From contig NZ_CP017480.1 in NCBI RefSeq assembly GCF_001887595.1, forward strand, positions 2,694,001-2,758,000: 64,000 bases of DNA. The letters run 5' to 3'. The notes beneath the pieces were generated by a model that made no database searches, was not told the DNA's origin, and was given only the letters and a program-made list of their open reading frames with translations. Source of the DNA: Luteibacter rhizovicinus DSM 16549 (lineage in GTDB: Bacteria > Pseudomonadota > Gammaproteobacteria > Xanthomonadales > Rhodanobacteraceae). Shown one piece after another: positions 3,496 through 37,108 of this stretch; the first letter of the stretch is position 1; each line of letters opens with the position of its first letter. The position numbers were made by a program, and so were the translations under genes.

Positions 3496-3539
3496 TTTCC
3501 CCGCGCCAAGCAAGGCGCAACCACGAAGGCACCGCCGTC

Positions 3540-4913
3540 ATGCAGCACTCCCTCAAAGCCGTAGCACCCTCGTCCCTCGACTGGGCGCCGGGTTCGTGGC
3601 GGTCGAGGACCGCCCTCCAGCAGCCGACGTATAACGACGCCGAGGAGCTCAATCGGGCGCTCGAGCAACTCGGTCAGCTGCCTCCGCTGGTCACCTCCTG
3701 GGAAATCCTCGCCCTCAAGCAGCGCATCGCCGAGGCGCAGGACGGTGAGCGTTTCCTGCTTCAGGGCGGGGACTGCGCCGAGAGCTTCGCGGACTGCAAT
3801 AGCCCGATCATTTCCAACCGGCTCAAGGTGCTGTTGCAGATGAGCCTCGTGCTCGTGCATGGCTTGAAGAAGCCCGTGCTTCGCGTGGGCCGTTTTGCCG
3901 GCCAGTACGCGAAGCCGCGCTCGGCCGATAGCGAAACGCGCGACGGTGTCACCTTGCCGGCGTTCCGTGGTGACCTGGTCAATAGCCCGGAATTCACGCC
4001 GGAAGCCCGTCGCGCGGATCCGAATCGCCTGATCAAGGCGCACGCGCGTTCGGCGATGACGATGAACTTCGTACGCGCACTCATCGACGGCGGTTTCGCT
4101 GATCTGCACCACCCGGAATACTGGGACCTGGCCTGGGTCGAACATTCGCCGCTGGCCGCCGAGTACCGTCGCATGGTCGCCAGCATCGGCGATTCGCTGC
4201 GCTTCATGGAAACGCTCGCCGGTCAGTCGATCTCCAGCTACTCGCGCGTGGATTTCTACACCTCGCACGAAGCGCTCCTGCTGCATTACGAGGAAGCGCT
4301 CACGCGTCAGGTGCCGCGCCAGGATGGCTGGTTCAACCTGTCCACGCATTTCCCGTGGATCGGGATGCGCACGGCGGCACTCGACGGCGCGCATACGGAA
4401 TACTTCCGCGGCATCCGCAATCCGATCGCGGTGAAGGTCGGACCGACCGTGCAGGCGGACGATCTGCTCCGCTTGATCGACGTATTGAATCCGAACGAAG
4501 AACCGGGTCGCCTGACCCTGATTCACCGCATGGGCAACGACAAGATCGGCACGCACCTGCAGCCGCTGCTCGAGGCCGTGAAGCGGGAGGGGCGCCGCGT
4601 GCTCTGGGTGGCCGATCCGATGCACGGCAACACCGAGAGCACGACCAACGGCTACAAGACCCGTCGCTTCGCGAACATTGCCGGCGAACTCGACCAGGCC
4701 TTCGACATCCACGCGGCCGCCGGCACACGGCTGGGCGGTGTGCATCTGGAACTCACCGGTGAGGACGTTACCGAATGCCTCGGCGGCGCCCGCGATCTGG
4801 TCGAGGGCGATCTCGACCGTGCGTACCGCTCGATGGTCGATCCACGCCTGAACTACGAACAGTCGCTGGAGATGGCGATGCTGATCGTGCGGAAGTCAGG
4901 TGGCATGGTTTGA
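3540..4913 (+). CDS. aroG: class II 3-deoxy-7-phosphoheptulonate (DAHP) synthase
   Basis: Catalyses the first step of the shikimate pathway, joining phosphoenolpyruvate and erythrose 4-phosphate. The 457-aa protein is of the class II (plant/PhzC/Mycobacterium AroG) type, recognisable by QGGDCAESFADC (metal-binding Cys), PVLRVGRFAGQYAKPRS, LIHRMGNDKIGTHLQPL, VADPMHGNTEST and HLELTGEDVTECLGG. It is unrelated in sequence to E. coli class I AroG/F/H. The frame is open further upstream into dsbB, but ATG 3540 gives the normal N-terminus and has GAAGG 10 bases before it. The gene symbol follows mycobacterial usage. Confidence 0.94.
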   Translation: MQHSLKAVAPSSLDWAPGSWRSRTALQQPTYNDAEELNRALEQLGQLPPLVTSWEILALKQRIAEAQDGERFLLQGGDCAESFADCNSPIISNRLKVLLQMSLVLVHGLKKPVLRVGRFAGQYAKPRSADSETRDGVTLPAFRGDLVNSPEFTPEARRADPNRLIKAHARSAMTMNFVRALIDGGFADLHHPEYWDLAWVEHSPLAAEYRRMVASIGDSLRFMETLAGQSISSYSRVDFYTSHEALLLHYEEALTRQVPRQDGWFNLSTHFPWIGMRTAALDGAHTEYFRGIRNPIAVKVGPTVQADDLLRLIDVLNPNEEPGRLTLIHRMGNDKIGTHLQPLLEAVKREGRRVLWVADPMHGNTESTTNGYKTRRFANIAGELDQAFDIHAAAGTRLGGVHLELTGEDVTECLGGARDLVEGDLDRAYRSMVDPRLNYEQSLEMAMLIVRKSGGMV

Positions 4914-22754: not shown

Positions 22755-24677
22755 ATGACCTCCGAAGGCAAGCCGATGGGCTACGACGAACTCTGGCGAC
22801 GCTCGGTCGATGAGCCCGAGTTGTTCTGGGCCGAGCAGGCGCGGCTGATCCACTGGGAGACGCCGCCCCAGCGCATCCTCGACGATTCACGGCCGCCGTT
22901 TCGCCGCTGGTTCGTCGGTGGCACCACCAATCTTTGCCACAACGCGATCGATCGACACCTCGACGAGCGTGGCGATCAGCTGGCGATCGTCGCTGTCTCT
23001 ACGGAAACGGAGTCGACGCGCGAGATCACCTATCGCGAATTGCATCGCGAGGTGAACGCGTTCGCCGCGGTACTCGTCGAGCTCGGCGTCGGCAAGGGCG
23101 ATCGGGTCGTCATCTACATGCCCAATATCGCCGAGGCGGTCTTCGCGATGCTGGCCTGTGCCCGCATCGGTGCGATCCATTCGGTGGTCTTCGGGGGCTT
23201 CGCCGCGCATAACCTCGCACTGCGTATCGACGACGCCGAGCCAGTACTCCTGATCTGCGCCGACGCCGGCATGCGGGGTGGCAAAGTCATTCCCTACAAG
23301 CCCCTGATCGATGCCGCGCTGCGTGAGACCAAAGCCCCGCCGGCGCACGTGCTGATCGTCGATCGCGGGCTCGATCCCGACATGGATCGCGTCGAACTTC
23401 GTGATGTTGATTACAACGAACGACGTCGCCGGCACGAGGGTGCGAACGTGCCGGTGACCTGGCTCGAGTCCAATGAGCCGAGTTATTTGCTCTACACCTC
23501 CGGCACGACCGGCAAGCCGAAGGGCGTGCAGCGCGATGTCGGTGGTTATGCAGTGGCGCTGGCACTGTCGATGACGACGATCTTCGACCTGCATCCCGGC
23601 CAGACGATCCTGTGTACCTCGGACGTGGGCTGGGCGGTGGGTCACTCGTACAACGTCTACGGACCGCTGATCGGCGGCTGTACGGCCATTCTCTACGAAG
23701 GTTTGCCGACGGCACCCGATCCGGGTATCTGGTGGCGGCTCTGCGAAACCTACCGCGTGCGCACCATGTTTTCCTCGCCGACCGCCATTCGCGTGTTGAA
23801 GAAACAGGATGCGTCCTGGTTGTCGCGATCTGACCTCTCCGCGCTGAAATACATCTTCTGCGCGGGCGAACCGCTGGACCAGACGACGTACGAATGGCTG
23901 TCGGGAGGGACCGGCAAGCTCGTCGTCGACAACTACTGGCAGACCGAGACCGGCTGGCCGGCGGTGTCACTGATGCCCGGGCTGGACCTCAAACCGGTCA
24001 GGCCAGGTTCGCCCGGTTTTCCGACGTTCGGCTTTCGCATGCGCGTGATCGATGAAGCGACCGGCGACGAAAAAGCGGCGGGGGAGAAGGGCGTGCTGGT
24101 CGTCGAGCTACCTTTGCCGCCCGGTTGCCTGACCACGATCTGGCGTGACGACGATCGCTACGTGCGCAGTTATTTTGGGCACTTCAAGGAACTGCTCTAC
24201 AGCTCGCTGGACTGGGCGGTCCGCGACGCGGACGGCTACCTGTTCATCCTGGGCCGCACCGACGATGTCATCAACGTGGCCGGACATCGCCTGGGCACGC
24301 GCGAGATCGAGGAGTCGGTGGCCACGCTCGGCGCGGTGGCGGAAGTCGCCGTGGTCGGTATCGGTGACGAGCTGAAAGGCCAGCTGCCCGCCGTCTTTGC
24401 CACCCTGAAGCAGGGCGTTACCGATGACCCGCGCGATGTCGCCCAGGCGATGGAGCGGCGCGTTGTCGAACTGCTGGGCGCGGTGGCGCGGCCGGGCTGC
24501 GTCTACGTGGTGAGTGCCTTGCCGAAGACGCGGTCGGGGAAGCTGTTGCGACGGGCGATCCAGGCGGTGATGGAAGGTACCGACCCTGGCGACCTTTCGA
24601 CGCTGGACGATCCGACTGCACTGGAGGCCGTGCGCAGGGCGGTGGCGCGCGGGCCGCATTGCGGACGGCACGGGTGA
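22755..24677 (+). CDS. prpE: propionyl-CoA synthetase
   Basis: A 640-aa AMP-forming acyl-CoA synthetase of the Acs family, length and details matching PrpE. The P-loop-like motif is YLLYTSGTTGKPKGVQRD, the adenylate motif YWQTETGWP, and the C-terminal lysine lies in LPKTRSGKLLRR. It activates propionate to propionyl-CoA for the 2-methylcitrate cycle, whose next enzymes prpC and prpB lie just downstream. A REP pair separates it from prpB, so a separate promoter for prpBC is likely. An acetyl-CoA synthetase activity is the main alternative. Confidence 0.9.
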   Translation: MTSEGKPMGYDELWRRSVDEPELFWAEQARLIHWETPPQRILDDSRPPFRRWFVGGTTNLCHNAIDRHLDERGDQLAIVAVSTETESTREITYRELHREVNAFAAVLVELGVGKGDRVVIYMPNIAEAVFAMLACARIGAIHSVVFGGFAAHNLALRIDDAEPVLLICADAGMRGGKVIPYKPLIDAALRETKAPPAHVLIVDRGLDPDMDRVELRDVDYNERRRRHEGANVPVTWLESNEPSYLLYTSGTTGKPKGVQRDVGGYAVALALSMTTIFDLHPGQTILCTSDVGWAVGHSYNVYGPLIGGCTAILYEGLPTAPDPGIWWRLCETYRVRTMFSSPTAIRVLKKQDASWLSRSDLSALKYIFCAGEPLDQTTYEWLSGGTGKLVVDNYWQTETGWPAVSLMPGLDLKPVRPGSPGFPTFGFRMRVIDEATGDEKAAGEKGVLVVELPLPPGCLTTIWRDDDRYVRSYFGHFKELLYSSLDWAVRDADGYLFILGRTDDVINVAGHRLGTREIEESVATLGAVAEVAVVGIGDELKGQLPAVFATLKQGVTDDPRDVAQAMERRVVELLGAVARPGCVYVVSALPKTRSGKLLRRAIQAVMEGTDPGDLSTLDDPTALEAVRRAVARGPHCGRHG

Positions 24678-24700
24678 GGTAAGGGCGGGGCAAGCTCCCA

Positions 24701-24777
24701 TTCGCCGATGAATCGGCTCCCACACACAGCATGGCCTGATGGGAGGCGCTTTCTGTGGGAGCCGATTCATCGGCGAT
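24701..24777. repeat. REP-like inverted pair 4
   Basis: Inverted copies TTCGCCGATGAATCGGCTCC (24701 on) and TGTGGGAGCCGATTCATCGG (24754 on) in the prpE-prpB gap. The remaining bases up to prpB hold TAAAAT (24819-24824), a possible -10 element for prpB. Confidence 0.85.
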
Positions 24778-24848
24778 GCTCTCCCGCGACGCAGCAAAGC
24801 CCCGGCGCCGGTTCGCGCTAAAATGGGATTCTTTACGCGGAGAGTTCC

Positions 24849-25736
24849 ATGGCACAGCTTCCCTCGGCCGGCGGTCGCTTCCGCGCCGCACTCGCGGCCG
24901 AACAGCCGTTGCAGGTGATCGGCGCGATCAACGCCAATCATGCCTTGCTGGCCAAGCGCGCCGGCTTCCGTGCCATCTACCTGTCCGGCGGCGGTGTCGC
25001 TGCCGGTTCGCTGGGCCTGCCGGACCTGGGCATCAACACCCTGGACGACGTGCTCACCGACGTCCGCCGCATCACCGACGTGTGCGACCTGCCGCTCATG
25101 GTCGACATCGATACGGGCTTCGGCCCCAGCGCGTTCAATATCGCGCGTACGGTGAAGAGCCTGATCAAGTTCGGTGCCGCCGCCTGCCATATCGAGGACC
25201 AGGTCGGCGCCAAGCGCTGCGGTCATCGTCCCGGTAAGGAAATCGTCACCACCGAGGAAATGGCCGACCGGGTCAAGGCCGCGGCCGATGCAAAGACCGA
25301 TCCCGACTTCTTCCTGATCGCCCGAACCGACGCCATCGCCGTGCTCGGTGTCGACGCCGCCATCGAGCGTGCCATCGCCTGCCAGGAAGCCGGTGCCGAC
25401 GCCATCTTCGCCGAAGCGGCGTACGACCTGCCGACCTACCAGCGTTTCGTCGAGGCGCTGAAGGTTCCCGTGCTGGCGAACATCACGGAGTTCGGCCAGA
25501 CCCCGCTGTTCAGCACCGAAGAGCTCGGCAGCGTCGGCGTGGGCATCGTGCTTTATCCGCTGTCTGCGTTCCGCGCCATGAACAAGGCCGCCGAGAACGT
25601 CTACACCGCCATTCGCCGCGACGGTCACCAGCGCAATGTCATCGACACGATGCAGACGCGCGAAGAGCTGTACGACCGTATTGGCTATCACGACTACGAG
25701 CGTCACCTCGATGCTCTGTTTTCCAAGAAGGGTTAA
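24849..25736 (+). CDS. prpB: 2-methylisocitrate lyase
   Basis: PrpB (295 aa) splits 2-methylisocitrate into pyruvate and succinate, the last step of the methylcitrate cycle. The isocitrate-lyase superfamily signature KRCGH (in [16 protein letters not shown]) is present, with upstream [16 protein letters not shown] and metal-binding VDIDTGFG. Length matches E. coli PrpB. GGAGAG precedes the ATG. It is followed by prpC after 12 bases. Confidence 0.96.
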
Positions 25737-25748
25737 GGAGAGTCACGC

Positions 25749-26900
25749 ATGAGCGACACCACCACCACCCCGCCGAAGGCAAAGAAGTCCGTCGCCCTTT
25801 CCGGCGTTGCGGCCGGCAATACCGCGCTTTGCACGGTCGGCCGCAGCGGCAACGACCTTCACTATCGTGGTTATGACATTCACGATCTTGCCGCCAAGGG
25901 TTCCTTCGAGGAAGTCGCCTACCTGCTCGTCCACGGCGTGCTGCCGAACTGGATGGAGCTCAACGCCTATCGCGCCAAGCTGAAGCGCCTGCGTGGCCTG
26001 CCCGCGCCGGTGAAGGCCGCGCTCGAGTTGCTGCCTGCGGCGACGCACCCGATGGACGTGATGCGCACCGGTGCATCCGTACTCGGCACCGTGCTTCCGG
26101 AAAAGGACGACCACAACATCACCGGCGCGCGCGATATCGCGGACCGCCTGATGGCCAGCTTCGGTTCGATGCTGCTGTACTGGTACCACTTCAGCCACAA
26201 CGGCAAGCGCATCGAGACCGAGACCGAGGACGAGTCGATCGCCGGGCATTTCCTGCACCTGCTGCACGGTCGCAAGCCGAGCGATCTGCATTCGCATGCG
26301 CTCGATCGCTCGCTCGTGCTCTATGCCGAACATGAATTCAACGCCAGCACGTTCACTGCGCGCGTCATCGCCGGTACCGGCTCGGATATGTATTCGGCGA
26401 TTACCGGCGCGATCGGTGCGCTGCGCGGTCCGAAGCACGGCGGCGCGAACGAAGTGGCGATGGAAATCATCGCGCGCTACCGCGATGCGGCGGAGGCCGA
26501 GGCGGACATCCGTGCACGCGTGGAGCGCAAGGAAATCATCATCGGCTTCGGTCACCCGGTGTATACCGTGTCCGATCCGCGCAACGAGATCATCAAGGAA
26601 ATCGCGCGCAAGCTCTGCACCGACGGCGGCAACCCGCGCCTGTTCGAAGTGTCGGAGAAGATCGAGAAGCTGATGTGGGAACTGAAGAAAATGTTCCCCA
26701 ACCTCGACTGGTACTCGGCGTCGGCGTACCACATGATGGGCGTGCCGACCGCGATGTTCACCCCGCTGTTCGTCATCGCGCGTACGTCGGGCTGGAGCGC
26801 GCATGTGATCGAACAGCGTCAGGACGGCAAGATCATCCGTCCGAGCGCGAACTACACCGGCCCAGAAGACCAGGCCTACGTGCCGATCGAAAAGCGCTGA
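25749..26900 (+). CDS. prpC: 2-methylcitrate synthase
   Basis: PrpC (383 aa) condenses propionyl-CoA with oxaloacetate. It has the short citrate-synthase fold with the active-site blocks [16 protein letters not shown] (His), [15 protein letters not shown] (His) and [16 protein letters not shown] (Asp region replaced by the expected family pattern). The opening [20 protein letters not shown] is typical for methylcitrate synthases. It is cotranscribed with prpB. acnD, prpF and a prpR regulator are not in the window; prpD lies 8.7 kb away. Confidence 0.96.
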
Positions 26901-26911
26901 AAATAGGGACA

Positions 26912-26990
26912 TGTAGGAGCCGATTCATCGGCGAAAAGCCAACGAAGCGGTGTAGCTGAAAGGCCCATCGCCGATGAATCGGCTCCCACA
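26912..26990. repeat. REP-like inverted pair 5
   Basis: TGTAGGAGCCGATTCATCGG (26912 on) and its inverse ending GGCTCCCACA at 26990, in the convergent gap between prpC and fadH. The second arm runs straight into a tandem repeat. Confidence 0.85.
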
Positions 26991-27068
26991 GCAAGCAGGG
27001 CCCCACAGCAAGCAGGGCCCCACAGCAAGCAGGGCCCCACAGCAAGCAGGGCCCGTCCGTCGGGCCCT
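26986..27068. repeat. four tandem 17-bp repeats plus hairpin
   Basis: Four identical 17-bp units CCACAGCAAGCAGGGCC at 26986-27002, 27003-27019, 27020-27036 and 27037-27053. The last unit overlaps a perfect hairpin AGGGCCCG-TCCGT-CGGGCCCT (27048-27068), six bases from the fadH stop codon. The hairpin may end fadH transcription but has no T tract on that strand. Perfect identity of the units suggests recent expansion. Confidence 0.85.
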
Positions 27069-27074
27069 CCAGGA

Positions 27075-29372
<2,298 letters not shown>

Positions 29373-29389
29373 TCACAGGAGACTCTCCC

Positions 29390-30334
29390 ATGCGTAAGAC
29401 TCTTATCGCCACGGCGATCTGCCTCGCTATCGGATTCGCACTGCCGGCCATGGCCGACGATACCCAGACGGGATCGTCAGGTGCATCGGCCCAACGTAAA
29501 TCGATTGCCGTGCAGTACTCAGACAGCTCGACTTACTCGGACAGCTCGACCCATTCCTGGGCCGACAGCTCGACTCATAGCAAGACCACATCCGGATCGT
29601 TCAACACCACGAACGCGGTCGCCAACAGCGAACTGAACGGAACGGTCAGCGGCGTCACCACCTACGGCAATGGCAATGTCGCCCAGAACTGGGGCAACGC
29701 CAATGGCGGCAAAGGGGGTTCGGGCGGCGATGGCTACGGCGCCAAAGGGTATGGCGGTAAAGGCGGATCCGGTGGCGATGGCGGCAACGCGCGTGCTCGT
29801 GGTGCTGTCGGTGGCGACGCCTCCTCAGATAGCGGCGACGCCGGCTCCCTGACGGCAGCGTCCGGTGGCGGTGCTCACGGTAACGGTGGCGACGCCTCCG
29901 GTGACGGTGGCAATGCCCGGTCGCGTGGTGCCGGTGGCGGCGCTCCGACGGGTGGATCCACGGCCAGCACGGGCGGCGCAAGCGCCAGCACGGGCGGCGC
30001 GGGCACCTCGGGCGATGCGACCGCGACGGCGACAGGCGGAGCGTCCACGGGTGGAGCCGGCGGCGAAGCGCTCGCCTCGGGCGGCGCCGGTGGCGCCGGC
30101 GCGTCGGGCGGTAGCGGCACCGGTGGCAACGGCAACGGCGCATCCGGTGGTGCCGGCGGTGCCGGTGGTGCGAACAACGTCAACGCAGGCACCTTCAGCA
30201 TGGCCAACGACATGGGCAGCGCTGCAGGTGGTGCCGCGGGTATCAGCACCTTCGCGCAGAACAGTGGCGCGGCGTCGTTGATCCAGCAGAGCGTGAACGT
30301 CCAGGCCAACCTGAGCGTGGGTTCGGCTCCGTAA
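29390..30334 (+). CDS. secreted Gly/Ala/Ser-rich structural protein, candidate amyloid/adhesin subunit
   Basis: A 314-aa protein with a Sec signal peptide (MRKTLIATAICLAIGFALPA then MADD). After it come short repeats of the type YSDSST / HSWADSSTHS (about residues 42-64), a block SGSFNTTNAVANSELNGTVS, and about 150 residues of Gly/Ala/Ser-rich low complexity with GGAGGAGAS-like stretches. The C-terminus is less simple: GISTFAQNSGAASLIQQSVN, then VQANLSVG. The NTTN/LNGT and QNSG blocks recur in the next gene product. AGGAGA precedes the ATG; a frame open further upstream lacks a signal. I infer a fibre-forming surface protein from composition, operon and neighbours; no CXXC motif of FapB/FapC is present. 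Confidence 0.75.
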   Translation: MRKTLIATAICLAIGFALPAMADDTQTGSSGASAQRKSIAVQYSDSSTYSDSSTHSWADSSTHSKTTSGSFNTTNAVANSELNGTVSGVTTYGNGNVAQNWGNANGGKGGSGGDGYGAKGYGGKGGSGGDGGNARARGAVGGDASSDSGDAGSLTAASGGGAHGNGGDASGDGGNARSRGAGGGAPTGGSTASTGGASASTGGAGTSGDATATATGGASTGGAGGEALASGGAGGAGASGGSGTGGNGNGASGGAGGAGGANNVNAGTFSMANDMGSAAGGAAGISTFAQNSGAASLIQQSVNVQANLSVGSAP

Positions 30335-30362
30335 ACGCACGGCAAGACGAAAGCGACGGGAA

Positions 30363-30389
30363 CCACGGAGCGCCTCGTGCGCTCCGTGG
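30363..30389 (+). other. strong intercistronic RNA hairpin
   Basis: An 11-bp perfect stem, CCACGGAGCGC with GCGCTCCGTGG, and a 5-base loop, in the 93-base gap behind the Gly-rich gene. No T tract follows, so it is more likely a 3'-end stabiliser or processing site than a terminator. It could give the first gene a higher mRNA level than the rest. Confidence 0.6.
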
Positions 30390-30427
30390 ACAGCCAAAGG
30401 AAAGAACGTCCTTGCTGGAGAACACCC

Positions 30428-30790
30428 ATGCCGCACGACAGGAAACACCGTACGTCGCTTGCGCTGGCAGCCTTGCTGGCTGCGTGCGCGAGTTCGGCCG
30501 CGTATGCCACGCCACCCGGACAGGAGCCGCCGCCTTCGTTCGGGCCGGCCACGCCGTCCGATCAGTTGCAGGACATGAGCGGCGGCAGCAACACCACGAA
30601 CAACGTCAACGCCCAGACCCTCAACGGCACCATGTCCGACACCGAGGCAAAGGGCACGTTCAGCGGGAGCAATGTCGTATCCGGGAGCGCGTTCGGTAGT
30701 TCCGCCGGGTTACCCACGGTGATCCAGAACTCCGGCAACAACGTGCTCATCCAGAACGCCACGATCGTCAACATCAGGATGAACCCATGA
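30428..30790 (+). CDS. small secreted protein, paralogue of the Gly-rich subunit, with double-Gly leader
   Basis: A 120-aa exported protein. Its signal peptide contains LAAC, so it may be a lipoprotein. After a Pro-rich stretch comes QLQDMSGG (Gly-Gly at 52-53), which fits the double-glycine leader pattern EL-X2-I-X-GG. Behind it, SNTTNNVNAQTLNGTMS and LPTVIQNSGNNVLIQNATIV align with the N- and C-terminal blocks of the Gly-rich protein, which differs mainly by its inserted low-complexity region. GGAG lies 8 bases before ATG 30428. The stop codon overlaps the C39 peptidase start (ATGA). Inferred role: nucleator or minor subunit. Confidence 0.75.
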   Translation: MPHDRKHRTSLALAALLAACASSAAYATPPGQEPPPSFGPATPSDQLQDMSGGSNTTNNVNAQTLNGTMSDTEAKGTFSGSNVVSGSAFGSSAGLPTVIQNSGNNVLIQNATIVNIRMNP

Positions 30791-31470
30791 GGATGGCCTG
30801 CGCCGTCGCCCTGCTCGTCGCGCTTGCCGCCACGCCGGCGGTCGCGATGAAGGCGGAGGTGCAGACCAGCCCGGGTACGTCGTACCCGATTCGCCTGACG
30901 AGCCTCAAGGAGGCGCGCTTCCGTAACACGATTCGACAGAAGTACGATTTCAGCTGCGGCTCCGCTGCCGTGGCGACCCTGCTCACCTACCAGTACGGCT
31001 ACCCGATCGACGAGCAGGCGGCGTTCGACGTGATGTTCACCAACGGCGATCGGGCCAAGATCGGCAAGGAAGGTTTTTCCCTCCTCGACATCAAGCGCTT
31101 CCTCGCTTCGCGTGGCTTCGACGCCGACGGCTTCGACGTGCCGCTGGAAAAACTCGACGACGAAGGCATCCCCGCCATCGTGTTGATCAACGAACGTGGC
31201 TATCACCATTTCGTGGTGATCAAAGGCTACAAGAATGGCCGTGTGCTGGTCGGCGACCCTGCACGTGGCACCCGTTCGATGTCGAAGCGCCGCTTTGATG
31301 CGATGTGGAACAACCATGTCGTCTTCGTCATCCATAACGAGCGAGACCGCGCCATTTTCAACAGTCCGCGCGACTGGGCGGTTGCTCCCGCGGCACCGAT
31401 CAGCGAAGGCATCGAGCGTAACGGGCTCGCGCCGATCGTCATGCCCAAGCGCGGACCGGGGGACATATGA
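30787..31470 (+). CDS. exported C39-family cysteine peptidase (FapD-like)
   Basis: A 227-aa stand-alone peptidase C39 domain behind a Sec signal peptide (MACAVALLVALAATPAVA). Catalytic residues are visible: Q51 and C57 in RQKYDFSCGSAAVATLL, H140/H141 in ERGYHHFVVIKGY, and D157 in VLVGDPARG. C39 peptidases usually cut bacteriocin leaders behind Gly-Gly while fused to an ABC exporter; this one has neither ATPase nor transmembrane domain and should act in the periplasm, like FapD of the Pseudomonas Fap operon. The genes on both sides encode proteins with Gly-Gly leaders. Four-base overlaps join it to both neighbours. Confidence 0.85.
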   Translation: MRMACAVALLVALAATPAVAMKAEVQTSPGTSYPIRLTSLKEARFRNTIRQKYDFSCGSAAVATLLTYQYGYPIDEQAAFDVMFTNGDRAKIGKEGFSLLDIKRFLASRGFDADGFDVPLEKLDDEGIPAIVLINERGYHHFVVIKGYKNGRVLVGDPARGTRSMSKRRFDAMWNNHVVFVIHNERDRAIFNSPRDWAVAPAAPISEGIERNGLAPIVMPKRGPGDI

Positions 31471-32060
31471 AAACCCGCCCCATCCTCATCGCCGTCCTGC
31501 TGGCCGGCGGTACCTGTGCCGCGAGCCATGCGGCGACCTTTCCGGTGAACCACGCCGTGCCGGACGCCCAGCTGGACACCATTCGCGGCGGCTTCGACTT
31601 CGGCGATAACCTGCGCGCCTCGTTCGCCCTGCAGCGAACCGTACTGGTCAATGGCATGGAGGCCATGCGCACCACCATCTCGGTCCCCGACATCGCCAAT
31701 ATCACTGCCCAGCAAGCCGCCCAGTTGCAGAGCGCGCTGCAGACGACGGTGATCAATGTAGGCAGCAACAGCGTGAATGCGGCCGCGCTTGCGCCGACCG
31801 ATGCGGCCCAGGCAAACGCTACGGCGCAGTCAGCTGCGTCGGTACCCGCGATGGGTGTGCAGGCAGCTGGGGCGGCGACGGCGACAGTCAATTTGCCCGC
31901 GTCGATCACGCCAGGGCTCGTCATCCAGAACTCGCTAGACAACCAGGCCATCACGGCCACCACCACGATCGACGCGTCGGTGAATACAGCACGCATGCTT
32001 CAGAACATGCGGGTAGCAGAATCGGTTAACGACGCGGTGGTCCAGTTCCGGGGGAACTAA
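31467..32060 (+). CDS. secreted protein with double-Gly leader (position of fapE)
   Basis: A 197-aa exported protein: signal peptide to about residue 22 (MKTRPILIAVLLAGGTCAAS), then a short propeptide ending QLDTIRGG (Gly-Gly at 41-42), an excellent match to the bacteriocin-type leader consensus. The mature part begins FDFGDNLRASFALQRTVLVN and is rich in Gln, Asn and Ala; its end has PGLVIQNSLDNQAI, sharing QNS with the two subunit-like proteins. It starts inside the peptidase stop codon and is followed by the outer-membrane gene after two bases. Function unknown; substrate of the C39 peptidase is my inference. Confidence 0.72.
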   Translation: MKTRPILIAVLLAGGTCAASHAATFPVNHAVPDAQLDTIRGGFDFGDNLRASFALQRTVLVNGMEAMRTTISVPDIANITAQQAAQLQSALQTTVINVGSNSVNAAALAPTDAAQANATAQSAASVPAMGVQAAGAATATVNLPASITPGLVIQNSLDNQAITATTTIDASVNTARMLQNMRVAESVNDAVVQFRGN

Positions 32061-32062
32061 GC

Positions 32063-33475
32063 ATGTATCGCAACGGCAGGGTGATGCAGGCAAGAACGTG
32101 TGCGGGCGCGCTTGCGCTGGCGACGCTACCGATGTGGATCGGTGCGTGCCTTGCGCAAGAGGCCAGTGCGGCCAGTACGAGTAATACGGTCGATCCGGTA
32201 CTGCGCGAAAAAATCGAGGCGCAGGGCCGACGTATCGATGCGATGCGCAGCAAGATGGCCGAGCAGCTCGCCGAACTCGAGCAAATGAAGCGCGAGCTCG
32301 CATCGCAGGAAGTCCAGTACAACGACCTGCGCAAGGCGATCGGCATGAACGCGCTGGAAGAGGCGCGTGGTGGGTCCGCCGCGGTCGCCGGCGCGCAGTC
32401 CGCGCCGCCGCAGGAAGATCCGACGCCCGGTACGCCGGCGCCTGGCGCACCGCCCGGGCAGACCTCGCAACCCGTGGTCGCGACGCGGCCGGTCGGCAAG
32501 CGCCCCGAACAGGATGACCGTCCGCCGGAGGTGGCGCCGATCTTCGACCAGCCCGGTGTGTTGACGCCGCGAGGCAAGCTCATCATCGAGCCGTCCTACC
32601 AGTATGGGTATTCGTCGAGCGATCGCGTAGCGCTCGTGGGCTATACGGTGATTCCGGCCATCCTCATCGGCCTGATCGACGTACGCCAGGTGAAGACGAC
32701 GACGCAGACCGGTGCGGTGGCGTTCCGTTACGGCCTGACCAACCGCATGGAACTGGAAGTCCGCATTCCGTACGTCAGTAACCACACCGACACGATCAGC
32801 CGCGAAATCTTCACCGGCACCGCACAGGACAATCTCTTCACGACCAGCGGCAAGGGCATCGGCGATATCGAAGCCACGTTGCGGTATCAGCTCAACGACG
32901 GCGGTGCGGACAAGCCGTACTACGTCGGCTGGTTCCGTGCGAAGTCGCGCACCGGTCGCGATCCCTTCGAAGTGACCAGCGATTGCGTCACGCGATGCCT
33001 CGAGAACTTCACGGGCACGGGCCTGCCCCTGCAAAGTCCGACGGGCACGGGTTTCTACTCCGCGCAGGCCGGCGTGACCTGGCTGTATCCCTCCGATCCC
33101 GTCGTTTTCTTCGGCAACCTGAGCTATCTGCACAACTTCGAGCGGAAAAACGTAAGTCGTAACGTAGTACTCGCCGGCAAACAGTTCCTCGGCGATATCA
33201 AGGCGGGCGACATCGCCGATATCAGCCTGGGCATGGGTCTTTCGCTCAACGAGAAGGCCTCGATCAGTATCGGTTACGACCAGGCGTTCGTCGGTCGCAC
33301 GCAACAGAACGGCGATCCGTTGCCGGGATCCGCGCGTGCGACGCTGGGTTCGCTGCTGATCGGCGGCTCGTACCGCTTCAATGAAAAAGAGACGTTAAAC
33401 GTCACGCTAGGCGTTGGTGTCACGCGCGATACGCCCGACACGACGATCACGGTGCGCGTACCGATTACGCTTTGA
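32063..33475 (+). CDS. coiled-coil plus beta-barrel outer-membrane protein (FapF-like transporter)
   Basis: A 470-aa outer-membrane protein. A signal peptide (to about residue 31) precedes a heptad-rich helix (about 47-95; REKIEAQGRRIDAMRSKMAE and following), a Pro/Gly-rich linker (about 110-165) and a beta-barrel domain with alternating strands from about 175 to the end, for example YRFNEKETLNVTLGVGVTRD. This coiled coil-linker-barrel order is that of FapF, the trimeric pore that secretes Fap amyloid subunits. Its place as last gene of the operon also agrees. A phenol-degradation MetA-type barrel is the alternative family name. Confidence 0.78.
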   Translation: MYRNGRVMQARTCAGALALATLPMWIGACLAQEASAASTSNTVDPVLREKIEAQGRRIDAMRSKMAEQLAELEQMKRELASQEVQYNDLRKAIGMNALEEARGGSAAVAGAQSAPPQEDPTPGTPAPGAPPGQTSQPVVATRPVGKRPEQDDRPPEVAPIFDQPGVLTPRGKLIIEPSYQYGYSSSDRVALVGYTVIPAILIGLIDVRQVKTTTQTGAVAFRYGLTNRMELEVRIPYVSNHTDTISREIFTGTAQDNLFTTSGKGIGDIEATLRYQLNDGGADKPYYVGWFRAKSRTGRDPFEVTSDCVTRCLENFTGTGLPLQSPTGTGFYSAQAGVTWLYPSDPVVFFGNLSYLHNFERKNVSRNVVLAGKQFLGDIKAGDIADISLGMGLSLNEKASISIGYDQAFVGRTQQNGDPLPGSARATLGSLLIGGSYRFNEKETLNVTLGVGVTRDTPDTTITVRVPITL

Positions 33476-33517
33476 TCCACACAATTCGTTGACTCTGCTG
33501 AACGCGTTTCAAACACG

Positions 33518-33543
33518 CGCGAATTCGCGTGCACGCGGTGCAC
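33518..33543. promoter_or_regulatory. two palindromes upstream of outer-membrane protein gene
   Basis: CGCGAATTCGCG (33518-33529) is a perfect 12-bp palindrome and GTGCAC-GCG-GTGCAC (33529-33543) follows it directly. They lie about 75 bases before the start codon at 33617 in a 141-base gap with AT-rich sequence behind them; operator use is plausible. Confidence 0.35.
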
Positions 33544-33616
33544 ACATTGCCACTCGTTAATATTTCGATGGGGGTTTGATCGACAACTAAAAACATTGGC
33601 AGGGAGTTTCACACAC

Positions 33617-34471
33617 ATGCGCAACCGTCATCATCGCTTTGGCAAGGCCACCGCGGGCCTCGCCATCGCAACACTCGCTGTCTTCGGTGCCGCTGCGCAT
33701 GCGCAGGACAGCAACAAAAAGTCCCAGTCCCCGGCGCTCGACAACATCAGCCTTTGGGTCGGCGGTTACTACACCAACAACGACACCAACATCGGTGGCA
33801 AGACGGCGTATCTGAACACCAGCGGCAACGTGAACCTCGAGAAAGATCTCGACTTCAAGAAGCACAAGACCGTGCCGCGCGTCCGCCTCGACTTCCTCAT
33901 CGGTGAACACCAGGGTTTCAGCTTCGACTACTACGAAGTGAACCGCTCGCATTCCAAGTCGCTCGACGAGAACATCGAGTTCCTTGGCCAGCCGATCGAT
34001 GCCGCTGCCGAAGCGAAGGGCAATTTGAAGTTCACCTTCGGTAGCGCTGCTTACAAGTGGTGGTTCGGCACCGGCGACGACGTCTTTGGTCTCGGCATCG
34101 GTGCGGCGTATTACAAGGTGCACGCCAGCGTCTACGGCAGCGCGACGGTCAACGATGAGAGCGTTGCCTCGGGTGCGAGCACGAACCAGAGCGCCTGGGC
34201 ACCGAACCTGCAGATCGGCTGGCGTCATGCCTTCAACGACCAGTGGCGCATGTACTTCAACGCCTCGGGCGTGAAGAAGAACGGTGGCGAACTCAACGGC
34301 CACATCTTCGATGCGGCACTTGGCCTGGAGTACTTCCCGTGGCAGAACGTGGGTATCGGCGCGGAGTACGCGTACACGAAGATCAAGCTCAACCAGGACA
34401 AGCGTAATTACAACCTCGATCTCGACATGAAGCTCAACGGACCGGCTGCTTACATCCGTTTCCGCTTCTGA
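33617..34471 (+). CDS. outer-membrane beta-barrel protein
   Basis: A 284-aa protein with a signal peptide (GKATAGLAIATLAVFGAAAHA then QDSNKK). The mature part shows amphipathic strands with aromatic ends such as NISLWVGGYYTNNDTNIGG, VRLDFLIGEHQGFSFDYYEV and the terminal AAYIRFRF, ending in Phe as usual for Bam-inserted porins. No specific family was recognised. It follows the amyloid-like operon after 141 bases containing two palindromes and has its own terminator, so it is probably a separate unit. Confidence 0.75.
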   Translation: MRNRHHRFGKATAGLAIATLAVFGAAAHAQDSNKKSQSPALDNISLWVGGYYTNNDTNIGGKTAYLNTSGNVNLEKDLDFKKHKTVPRVRLDFLIGEHQGFSFDYYEVNRSHSKSLDENIEFLGQPIDAAAEAKGNLKFTFGSAAYKWWFGTGDDVFGLGIGAAYYKVHASVYGSATVNDESVASGASTNQSAWAPNLQIGWRHAFNDQWRMYFNASGVKKNGGELNGHIFDAALGLEYFPWQNVGIGAEYAYTKIKLNQDKRNYNLDLDMKLNGPAAYIRFRF

Positions 34472-34525
34472 TCGTCTGGTTGGCGAGCGGCCTTGGGCCG
34501 GTCGCCCTGCCAGGGGGAATCCATC

Positions 34526-34551
34526 GGCCGCCTTCGGGCGGCCTTTTTTTA
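34526..34551 (+). terminator. intrinsic terminator after outer-membrane protein gene
   Basis: 7-bp stem GGCCGCC / GGCGGCC with TTCG tetraloop and seven T. Confidence 0.9.
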
Positions 34552-34572
34552 TGGGATCTGGGATCTGAGAAA

Positions 34573-34689
34573 TGTGGGAGCCGCTTCAGCGGCGATGCTT
34601 CTCTTCGGTGGAGACTGGGGCAAGCAGCCTGTGGGGGCGCGGCTGCGCCGCGGGTTTATTTACTATTCGCCGATGAATCGGCTCCCACA
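34573..34689. repeat. REP-like cluster 6, reaching into the terC gene
   Basis: TGTGGGAGCCGCTTCAGCGG (34573 on), a degenerate middle unit GTGGGGGCGCGGCTGCGCCG, and TCGCCGATGAATCGGCTCCC (34667 on). The last unit lies inside the 3' end of terC, which stops at 34656. Confidence 0.8.
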
Positions 34690-35369
34690 TTCGGCACCGA
34701 TGAATTGGTTCTTGCCCTTGCCCGCCACCAGCCACCGGCGCAGATGCCGATGACGAGGAGGGCGTCGAGGGTCCACGGGGCCCACGGGTTCGCCTCGAAC
34801 CAAGGCGAGACCAGGTTGTCGTGCGCGATCATCCGGGCGGCCGTCCAGGCGATGGCGGCGGCGCCGATGTAGATCACGATGGGGAAGCGTTCGATCAGCT
34901 TGAGGATCAGGGTCGAGCCCCAGACCACCAGTGGGACGCTGATGGCCAGGCCGAGGACGACCAGGCCCATGTGGCCCTTGGCCGCTCCGGCAATCGCCAG
35001 GACGTTGTCCAGGCCCATCAGCGCATCGGCGATCACGATAGTGCGGATCGCCGCCCAGAAGCCCGCAGCGGGCGTAATGGACGGGTCGTGCTCGTCGTGC
35101 TTGAGGAGCTTCCAGGCGATAGGGATGAGAAGGGCGCCGCCGATCAGCATCAGGCCGGGCAGCTTGAGCAGCCAGATCACGGCGAAGGTCAGCACGATGC
35201 GCAGGGCGATCGCGCCGAAGGTGCCCCAGAACACCGCTTTCTTCTGCAATTCGCGGGGCAGGTTGCGTGCAGCCAGGGCGATGACGATGGCGTTGTCGCC
35301 GGCCAGCACCAGGTCGAGCAGGATGATCGCTGCGAGGCCGGAGAAGAATTCGGGAGTGAGGAAATCCAT
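34656..35369 (-). CDS. TerC family membrane protein, likely manganese exporter
   Basis: A 237-aa protein with about seven hydrophobic segments. The TerC signatures are clear: LLDLVLAGDNAIVIALAARN near the N-terminus and ADALMGLDNVLAIAGAA in the middle, each with an acidic residue in the membrane. TerC/Alx proteins export Mn2+, sometimes coupled to exoenzyme metalation. ATG 35369 starts MDFLTPEFFSGL. The final residues VGADSSANSK are encoded by a REP element, so the native C-terminus was replaced or extended. A yybP-ykoY riboswitch in the leader supports the manganese role. Confidence 0.88.
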   Translation of the reverse strand: MDFLTPEFFSGLAAIILLDLVLAGDNAIVIALAARNLPRELQKKAVFWGTFGAIALRIVLTFAVIWLLKLPGLMLIGGALLIPIAWKLLKHDEHDPSITPAAGFWAAIRTIVIADALMGLDNVLAIAGAAKGHMGLVVLGLAISVPLVVWGSTLILKLIERFPIVIYIGAAAIAWTAARMIAHDNLVSPWFEANPWAPWTLDALLVIGICAGGWWRARARTNSSVPNVGADSSANSK

Positions 35370-35437
35370 GAAGCGGGTCCTTCGCGCGTTGTGAGATCGA
35401 ATGCGGCGGCGACGGGTACGCGCACCCGTCGTCACCA

Positions 35438-35550
35438 CAAAAGTCTCGTTCCCGGCGCGATGCCGCCGCGACGCCCGGGACGCGTGTGGCGTCCGTACTG
35501 ACGATCGTCGCGCACGAAGCCGGAAGGCTCCGCGGAACTACTCCCTCTTG
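35438..35550 (-). ncRNA. yybP-ykoY manganese riboswitch upstream of terC
   Basis: Read on the minus strand, the closing stem CAAGAG (35550-35545) pairs with CTTTTG (35443-35438). Just inside it are the two conserved aptamer loops, GGGAGTAG (35545-35538) and AACGAGAC (35450-35443), as in E. coli alx and mntP leaders. A strong hairpin with arms GACGGGT and ACCCGTC (35411-35430) follows and may be the expression platform; no T tract is present, so translational control is likelier. Confidence 0.8.
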
Positions 35551-35656
35551 GGCGGTAGTCGGGGGCATTGTGGCGGTTGAGATGCACCGCGGCAAGACAT
35601 ACCCGGGGGTCGACCGGTTAAAATCGCCGGTTTCCCACCCTCCACGAGTGAAGTCC

Positions 35657-37108
35657 ATGAGCGCACACGATATCCGTTCCGCCACGCGTCCCGATCCGGA
35701 CCAGCCGCTGGTGGACATCGCCAACTACGTGGCCGATTACCAGATCGACTCGACAGAGGCGTACGACACCGCGCGCTACATGCTTCTGGACTCGCTGGCC
35801 TGCTCGGCCCTGGCGATGAAGTTCCCGGACTGCGTCAAGCACCTCGGTCCGCTGGTCCCGGGCGCGGTGATGGAGGGCGGTGCGCGCGTGCCGTTCACCT
35901 CGCACGTACTGGATCCGGTCCAGGCCGCCTTCGCCATCGGCACCCAGATCCGTTATCTCGACTTCAACGACACCTGGCTGGCCGCCGAGTGGGGCCATCC
36001 GTCGGACAACCTCGGCTCGATCCTCGCCGTGGCCGACTACCTGTCGCGGAAGGCCGAGAAGGAAGGCGGCAAGGCGCTGACCGTGCGTGACGTCCTCGGC
36101 TACGCCATCAAGGCCCACGAGATCCAGGGCTGCTATGCGCTGAAAAACAGCTTCAACCGCGTCGGCCAGGACCACGTGATCCTGGTCCGCCTGGCCTCCA
36201 CGGCCGTGACCACGGCCATGCTCGGCGGCGGCAAGGAGCAGATCACCACGGCCGTCTCGCACAGCTGGATCGACAACGGCGCGCTGCGTACCTACCGCCA
36301 CGCCCCGAACACCGGTCCGCGCAAGAGCTGGGCCGCCGGTGACGCCTGCCGCCGCGCCGTCACCCACGCCATCAACGCCGTGTATCGCAACGTGGTGGGC
36401 TACCCCTCGGCGCTCACCGCCAAGACCTGGGGCTTCTACGACGTGGCCTTCGAGGGCAACGCCTTCGAGTTCGAGCGTCCGTTCGGCAGCTACGTGATGG
36501 AAAACGTCCTGTTCAAGATCAGCTTCCCGGCCGAATTCCACGCCCAGACCGCGGTGGAATGCGCCATGGCCCTGCACGGCCAGGTCGCCGACCGGATCGA
36601 CCAGATCGAGAAGATCGTCATCGAGACCCAGGAAGCCGGCGTCCGCATCATCGACAAGACGGGCCCCCTGGCCAACTACGCCGACCGTGACCATTGCATC
36701 CAGTACATGGTCGCGGTCCCGCTGATTTTCGGTCGCCTGACGGCAGACGACTACAACGACTCGATCGCCTCGGATCCGCGTATCGACGCCCTGCGCGACA
36801 AAATGACCGTGGTGGAGAATCCGCAATTCACCAAGGATTACTTCGACCCGGAAAAGCGCTACATCGGCAATTCGGTCCAGGTTTTCTTCAAGGATGGGTC
36901 GAAAACCGAAAAGGTATCGATCGATTTCCCCATCGGCCACCGCAAGAGGCGTGCCGAAGGCATCCCCGTGCTGCTGAAGAAATTCGAGGCTGCCCTGCGC
37001 GCCGAGTGGCCTGCAGAGCGGGTGGAGAAGGTTCTTGCGGTCACTTCTTCGCCGGAAACGCTTGATGCCATGCCCATTCACGAGTTCATGACACTCTTCA
37101 CGGCTTGA
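35657..37108 (+). CDS. prpD: 2-methylcitrate dehydratase
   Basis: PrpD (483 aa, equal to E. coli) dehydrates 2-methylcitrate to 2-methyl-cis-aconitate. The MmgE/PrpD fold is recognised from LLDSLACSALAMKFPDC, RYLDFNDTWLAAEWGHPSDN, FNRVGQDHVILVRLASTAV and the later FPAEFHAQTAVECAM. ATG 35657 gives the normal N-terminus. It is separated from prpC by fadH, the amyloid-like operon, an outer-membrane protein and terC, which is unusual since prp genes normally cluster. Confidence 0.94.
   Translation: MSAHDIRSATRPDPDQPLVDIANYVADYQIDSTEAYDTARYMLLDSLACSALAMKFPDCVKHLGPLVPGAVMEGGARVPFTSHVLDPVQAAFAIGTQIRYLDFNDTWLAAEWGHPSDNLGSILAVADYLSRKAEKEGGKALTVRDVLGYAIKAHEIQGCYALKNSFNRVGQDHVILVRLASTAVTTAMLGGGKEQITTAVSHSWIDNGALRTYRHAPNTGPRKSWAAGDACRRAVTHAINAVYRNVVGYPSALTAKTWGFYDVAFEGNAFEFERPFGSYVMENVLFKISFPAEFHAQTAVECAMALHGQVADRIDQIEKIVIETQEAGVRIIDKTGPLANYADRDHCIQYMVAVPLIFGRLTADDYNDSIASDPRIDALRDKMTVVENPQFTKDYFDPEKRYIGNSVQVFFKDGSKTEKVSIDFPIGHRKRRAEGIPVLLKKFEAALRAEWPAERVEKVLAVTSSPETLDAMPIHEFMTLFTA

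Follow-up and report, generated by a model that had tools for sequence, protein, structure and literature searches.

Double-glycine leaders on exported proteins beside a FapD-like C39 peptidase in a Luteibacter-type operon

The Fap system and the Luteibacter-type operon

FapD, the C39 peptidase of the Fap system, is required for Fap amyloid secretion. The protein is reported to be periplasmic, and its C38A exchange is described as stopping the secretion of FapC (PMC5557850). According to the same 2017 work, FapE was the only Fap protein without N-terminal peptides. Its authors stated that canonical C39 sites are absent from the Fap proteins, called the FapD target unclear, and proposed that FapE or the linker of FapF is cleaved (PMC5557850). 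A 2018 review described the FapD substrate as yet to be determined (PMC6173800), and a review from 2025 states that FapD is "thought to" process the N-terminus of FapE and FapF (PMC12822426). The leader rules of C39 peptidases have been reported for other members of the family: Lys or Asp at position -4 or -7 abolishes or strongly impairs cleavage, while -3 is tolerant; GG, GA, and GS have all been reported to be cut; and the ComA consensus is L-12 xxx E-8 L-7 (PMC6363468). In the open-licence full-text literature, searched mostly as listings, we found the FapE/FapF cleavage proposal but no description of the leader reported here. FapE has thus already been proposed as a FapD target, and the precise leader is what our comparison adds.

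The window, which is the whole 64-kb stretch of DNA that was analyzed, belongs to a genome of 4,765,486 bases in a single contig. It contains the cluster G-A-C39-E-F with all genes on the + strand (29390-33475), referred to in the following as the Luteibacter-type operon, as the closest relatives in the genome collection searched are from Luteibacter. G (29390..30334, +) encodes an exported, Gly-rich, fiber-like subunit of 314 aa with the C-terminal sequence QNSG..LIQQSVNVQANL and without a C39-type leader; with the query taken from 29366, neither Pfam nor NCBIfam gave a match at E<=1. A (30428..30790, +) encodes an exported protein of 120 aa with the C-terminal sequence VIQNSGNNVLIQNATI, and is followed by the gene of a FapD-like C39 peptidase of 227 aa with a signal-peptide-like start (30787..31470, +). 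E (31467..32060, +) encodes an exported protein of 197 aa that is FapE-like at its leader, and F (32063..33475, +) a FapF-like outer-membrane barrel of 470 aa with an N-terminal coiled coil. ATGA overlaps are present at the A/C39 and C39/E junctions, and two bases separate the stop codon of E from the ATG of F. Pfam and NCBIfam scans of A, E, and G returned nothing of note. The signal peptides of A, C39, and E are predictions from manual reading and an in-house score, which both gave signal-peptide-like starts for the three proteins that an earlier note on this DNA had called Sec-exported. A lipobox-like LAAC in the signal peptide of A was dropped as a candidate feature, as it is absent from the Luteibacter-type loci L001, L014, and L023.

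Regarding the surroundings, the cluster is flanked by genes that by eye resemble those of the methylcitrate cycle (22755-37108), with prpE-, prpB-, and prpC-like genes before and a prpD-like gene after it, and parts of this neighborhood also occur at L014, L023, and L045. A small outer-membrane barrel gene (33596-34471; PF13505, 31.8 bits, above the cut-off) follows F and is also present in the Luteibacter loci L001 and L008. Peptide strings resembling one another (SPMNRLP, ADESAPT) recur in spurious open reading frames at about 24700-24780, 26960-27150, and 34640-34700, which hints at a repeat dispersed over intergenic regions.

The peptidase matched Pfam PF03412 with an E value of 1.5e-20. 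Its catalytic residues Gln51, Cys57 (codon 30955..30957, +), His141, and Asp157 are invariant in all 95 aligned peptidases, window included, and align with Gln21, Cys27, His101, and Asp117 of LahT, confirming the earlier note's claim that a catalytically complete C39 peptidase is encoded between A and E. Among solved structures, LahT (6mpz) is also the one whose sequence comes closest to profile A4 of the peptidase (E 1.7e-15), and the structural model of the peptidase (mean pLDDT 77.7, with parts of residues 43-53 below 50) matches ComA, PCAT1, and LahT. The window peptidase thus has the fold and the catalytic Cys, His, and Asp of the C39 family. It is a stand-alone protein and not fused to an ABC transporter. 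An ordinary bacteriocin or type I exporter was considered and rejected, as the peptidase stands alone with its signal-peptide-like start and the six proteins scanned contain no ABC domain, the other nearby open reading frames having been judged by eye.

The operon and the Fap amyloid exporter are sister systems. In a profile-profile comparison with FapE, E gave an hhalign probability of 93.9 (E 1.6e-7) over 35 columns that correspond to the leader region, whereas the FapE model NF058559 itself found no match at E<=1. The best solved fold match of F was FapF (5o65_B, E 7.1e-17), and the model of F (mean pLDDT 66.4) has helices at residues 45-92 and 95-102 and a barrel from residue 173. Strict Fap membership was rejected, as the peptidase reached 139.5 bits with the NCBIfam FapD model (NF058616, cut-off 330) and F 143 bits with the FapF model (NF058560, cut-off 700), and as FapB/FapC repeats (GN-X-G-N-X2-AG-X2-NQQ-X-N), searched with two loose patterns, were absent from G, A, C39, E, and F.

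The leaders and their conservation

What computation shows directly are the leaders and how well they are conserved, the full set of catalytic residues, and the kinship to FapD, FapE, and FapF. The two double-glycine sites that the earlier note had pointed out are found at the positions claimed. The leader of A (positions -12 to -1, 30551..30586, +) ends with QLQDMSGG (Gly52-Gly53, nt 30581-30586), and that of E (31557..31592, +) ends with QLDTIRGG (Gly41-Gly42, nt 31587-31592). We found a third, leader-like site in F (32339..32374, +), which ends with ALEEARGG (Gly103-Gly104, nt 32369-32374) and lies between the coiled coil and the linker. In the model of F, this RGG follows the second helix, a placement to be taken with reserve because residues 97-164 have pLDDT values below 50. 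The features of C39 leaders, namely a hydrophobic residue at -12, Leu at -7, a non-charged residue at -4, and GG, are present in E (V-12, L-7, I-4) and F (I-12, L-7, A-4), and also in A (L-7, M-4), except that A has a Thr at -12. With these ComA/LahT recognition residues, the assignment of C39-type leaders to A and E stands.

For the analysis of conservation, a peptidase scan of genome contigs gave 146 relatives, and we retained the best 80 (L001-L080), which include Luteibacter, Dyella, Rhodanobacter, Frateuria, Fulvimonas, Variovorax, Paucimonas, and Povalibacter. A FapD family search in 369 genomes of the class matched 45; 40 stretches were fetched, and 14 of them had the A/E/F set (L127-L140). 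The main comparison set therefore comprised 94 loci and the window. The HMMs were built from L001-L080; the A HMM missed L127 and the F HMM missed L065 and L078, and n is 94 for A and 93 for F.

The site of E is RGG in all 95 aligned proteins (84 RGGF, 8 RGGY, and one each of RGGM, RGGL, and RGGI). Position -12 is V, L, A, I, or M and position -7 is L or M throughout, and -4 is V, L, M, or I in 70. In A, Leu-7 is present in 94/94, and -12 is L, I, V, M, or A in 88; GG is found in 82, and -2 is Gly in 90 and Ala in 4. An Arg followed by GG, AG, or GA (31, 28, and 2 cases) occurs in 61 of the 93 aligned F proteins, and the site is absent in the other 32. In 13 further loci of the Luteibacter type (L152, L198, L199, L201, L204-L212), E has RGG in every case and A has GG in 9 of the 12 with an A hit. 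Among the database matches listed for E (120 of 318 found, one of the 120 being P0214, the E protein of the window itself), RGG occurs in 119 and RGA in the remaining one. In an alignment of 21 diverse E proteins with 18-41% identity to the window E, only M1, R40, G41, G42, Q154, and N155 are invariant. Hence the comparison of the Gly-Gly site with its flanks in homologous operons, which the earlier note had suggested as a check, shows that the site is kept rather than the flanks.

As double glycines could in principle arise by chance, residues 21-110 of each protein were shuffled 200 times. The pattern [LM]xxxRGG, observed in 94 of 95 E proteins, was obtained in a mean of 0.4 and a maximum of 3 shuffled proteins, and [LM]x4GG, observed in 81 of 94 A proteins, in a mean of 7.4 and a maximum of 14. 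Of 413 control open reading frames with signal-peptide-like starts from the same loci but outside these families, one had [LM]xxxRGG and 14 had [LM]x4GG, three of the latter with a hydrophobic -12; the controls were selected by the in-house signal-peptide score and include spurious reading frames. Shuffles and controls together rule out a chance origin of the GG. The sole control match to [LM]xxxRG[GKR][FY] was in L220, in a gene directly upstream of another exported C39 peptidase, and is thus not a clean negative.

It could also be argued that LxxxRGG has nothing to do with the peptidase and serves mature A and E as a structural or binding motif. This would agree with the conservation of E beyond the glycines (Phe or Tyr at +1 in 92/95, Asp at +2 in 78/95) and with the similarity of A and E at their C-termini (hhalign 96.3), due to which the two may be paralogues rather than independent cases. 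However, the F linker shows the same spacing, as do FilA/DUF6160 proteins encoded next to exported C39 peptidases, so that the leader motif recurs on otherwise unlike proteins, and we regard a purely structural or binding role as very unlikely.

With G, no leader was detected in residues 20-110 of any of the 70 proteins (0/70; the G set comes from 70 of the 80 loci L001-L080, where G was recognized by its C-terminal signature). The leaders sit on the smaller or accessory components and, in the Luteibacter lineage, on the pore protein. This bears on the possibility that the fiber subunit (G here, FapC in Fap) is the essential substrate and that the A and E leaders are of minor relevance. A docking paper indeed states that FapD modifies FapC (PMC10638192), and FapC secretion requires FapD; the leaderless G proteins nevertheless make this reading extremely improbable, as do the reported FapB and FapC peptides, which span the whole proteins while the N-terminus of FapE is missing (PMC5557850). 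The earlier note had assumed a two-step maturation, possibly to release the polymerizing form near the pore. The two-step maturation appears well supported by sequence and by analogy and is the best reading, but its presumed purpose is not supported: with a leaderless fiber-like G, the peptidase would more plausibly license accessory proteins or the pore than release a polymerizing subunit.

Two aspects of gene order are noted here. The F gene is on the strand opposite to A-C39-E and apart from it in L058, L059, L066, L072, L128, L130, L132, and L135, and the F site is mostly missing there. At L198, 3666-9048 holds a near-identical tandem pair of G-A-C39-E.

FapE and the -1 position

The plain double glycine of the Luteibacter-type site made it possible to identify the homologous stretch of FapE with its exact residues. 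The FapE set comprised 34 proteins (L112-L126, L151, L154, L185-L189, L191, L192, L194, L200, L202, L203, and L213-L217, with two in L217), and the leader has L, V, or I at -12, L or M at -7, and M, L, I, or Q at -4 in all of them, Glu at -8 in 26, and Arg at -3 in 32. Positions -2 (Gly in 34) and -1 (Arg in 24, Lys in 10) were counted with a pattern that requires [RTH]G[RK][FYA] and that all 34 satisfy, and +1 is Tyr or Phe in 34. In an alignment of 13 FapE sequences, Arg42 and Gly43 are invariant, and RGR is present in all 120 FapE-like database proteins among the matches listed (450 found), most of the named ones being from Stenotrophomonas. Judging by their FapC starts, we take L185-L189, L191, L192, and L194 to resemble the Pseudomonas-type fapABCDEF. 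FapA has leader-like stretches as well, for example LGDADFARVSGG in L185 (NCBIfam FapA 2e-22) and LSDSDFAGVTSG in L191 and L194. As side aspects, L217 contains two fap-type gene sets in succession, in which one FapA leader ends with VVGRY and resembles the FapE site, and the first repeat of the FapB-like proteins of L114, L115, L117, and L125 has a start that resembles the leader spacing (e.g., ALSNVSG), which could be coincidence or descent from a leader.

Homologues that keep the peptidase without the Gly-Gly, which the earlier note had named as an argument against its proposal, were therefore found in part, namely FapE with G[RK] and the 12 of 94 A proteins without GG; those that have lost the second glycine still keep the leader helix and a small residue at -2. 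The residue at -1 varies among the relatives (Gly, Arg, Lys, Met, Thr, Gln, Ser, and Asp), and -2 (Gly or Ala) is steadier.

In a tree of 91 peptidases, whose system labels were assigned from neighboring genes, the Luteibacter-type (46 rows), Fap (32), and Fil-type (13) sequences each fall on one side of a branch, with supports of 100/98, 100/99, and 91/59, respectively. As each system has its own side of a branch, the choice of Gly or Arg/Lys at -1 in the leaders of E and FapE tracks the peptidase clade. A genome with both systems (G012) has each with its own type, RGRY at L116 and RGGF at L140. Pocket covariation was set aside as the cause of this switch: eight columns are clade-specific (53, 59, 65, 92, 114, 116, 182, and 197), and assigning any of them to a pocket would require a complex. 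Column 114 has Arg or Lys in FapD but also Lys in LahT, a peptidase that cuts after GG, and a charge swap at this column therefore offers no explanation.

With regard to other exported C39 systems, 10 of 14 Fil-type loci have a leader-bearing neighbor of the same spacing that ends with TGQ, SGQ, or AG, some of these being FilA/DUF6160 proteins, and four have no such neighbor. The window operon itself is not a Fil system by NCBIfam, with 135 of the required 475 bits for FilB, 44 of 630 bits for FilC, and zero FilA/DUF6160 matches in the six proteins scanned. The listings of a literature search on Fil, and on fap-like operons of these genera, contained nothing of use. Locus L144 has, at 3528-4775, a row of three genes for small exported proteins whose leaders end with TAG or SAG, followed by an exported C39 peptidase, possibly as a multi-substrate cassette.

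The variable -1 residue also leaves room for the view that the peptidase binds the leaders without cutting them and acts as a chaperone or tether, as the C39-like domains of HlyB-type exporters do, and inactive C39-like domains are indeed described (PMC6363468). Since Cys, His, Asp, and Gln are kept in 95/95 peptidases, and since the reported C38A exchange in FapD abolishes secretion (PMC5557850), docking without cutting is unlikely.

A variant of our proposal that is compatible with it concerns the bond. The same peptidase could read the same leader but cut one residue earlier, after -2 (LxxxR-G|x), the double glycine then being a special case of [R/S]-[G/A]|x. We consider this possible but rather doubtful. 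It would account for the constancy of -2 (Gly in 95/95 E and 34/34 FapE, Gly or Ala in 94/94 A) and for the variety at -1, including the Gln of the FilA-type examples. On the other hand, the distance from Leu-7 to the active site suits cleavage after -1 in LahT, every aligned E has Gly at -1, and the FapE counts come from a pattern that itself requires G[RK]. As -2 is more constant than -1, either bond may be the one that is cut.

Proposed maturation and comparison with known systems

In our preferred reading, A, E, and F are exported by Sec, read at their leaders, and cut by the exported C39 peptidase at or next to the GG, and the FapE site is likewise the likeliest target of FapD; we consider this probable. 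The occurrence of cleavage, the bond, and the purpose are what we infer here. A, E, and F would cross the inner membrane by Sec and shed their signal peptides, after which the exported peptidase would bind the short leader helix of E and A (hydrophobic -12, Leu-7, and a usually hydrophobic -4) and, in the Luteibacter lineage, also the leader at the junction of coil and linker in F. It would then cut at the double glycine or beside it. The cut would free E and A of the short stretch left behind the signal peptide and thereby license export through F or action at F, and in F it would detach the coiled coil. We take E to be the common substrate, A the second, and F a third one in some lineages. 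That FapD is periplasmic and needs its Cys makes such a two-step maturation, by analogy, the best reading.

Some observations count against this proposal. FapE has Arg or Lys at -1, and no C39 peptidase is known to accept these residues there (the endings reported to be cut are GG, GA, and GS); in 12 of 94 loci, GG is present in E but not in A beside the same peptidase; and the F site is missing in 32 of 93 proteins and lies in a region with pLDDT below 50 in the window model. The non-GG A proteins may reflect a permissive S1 site of periplasmic C39 peptidases or a cut after -2, or such A proteins may be uncut. For Fap, the homologous stretch of FapE, with the same leader but G-[R/K] in place of G-G, keeps an intact ComA/LahT-type recognition helix without the last glycine, which makes it the precise candidate site of FapD.

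The comparison also points to a second route served by C39 peptidases, one that is periplasmic and ABC-free. We tentatively extend this to one general "Sec, then C39" route in proteobacteria, in which the peptidases of Fap, Fil, and Luteibacter-type systems may read a ComA-type helix on FapE, FapA, FilA, A, E, and some pores. The -2 residue would be small, and the -1 residue (Gly; Arg or Lys; often Gln) would keep systems of the same cell apart, with a cut after -2 or an S1 site unlike that of ABC-type C39 peptidases. The peptidase of the Luteibacter lineage would also cut its own pore.

With the C39 domains of bacteriocin/RiPP ABC exporters (ComA, PCAT1, LahT), the window peptidase shares the fold, the catalytic residues, and the leader positions -12, -7, and -4 with GG, but it stands alone with a signal peptide and without a fused ABC transporter, and its putative substrates have signal peptides, too. 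The putative pilus system Fil of Acinetobacter (FilA-FilF) likewise has an exported C39 peptidase, a barrel, and a neighbor, FilA, with the same leader spacing. The leader of FilA (DUF6160), however, ends with TGQ, the window proteins score far below the FilB and FilC cut-offs, and the Fil peptidases fall outside the Luteibacter-type clade. The fapABCDEF system of Pseudomonas differs in the end of the site (G[R/K] in Fap, GG in the window); the window has an additional leader protein, A, and a separate peptidase clade, and its peptidase, E, and F are below the NCBIfam cut-offs or unmatched. In both operons, an exported C39 peptidase is encoded between secreted proteins, next to a FapE-type protein with the same leader and a FapF-type barrel with a coiled coil.
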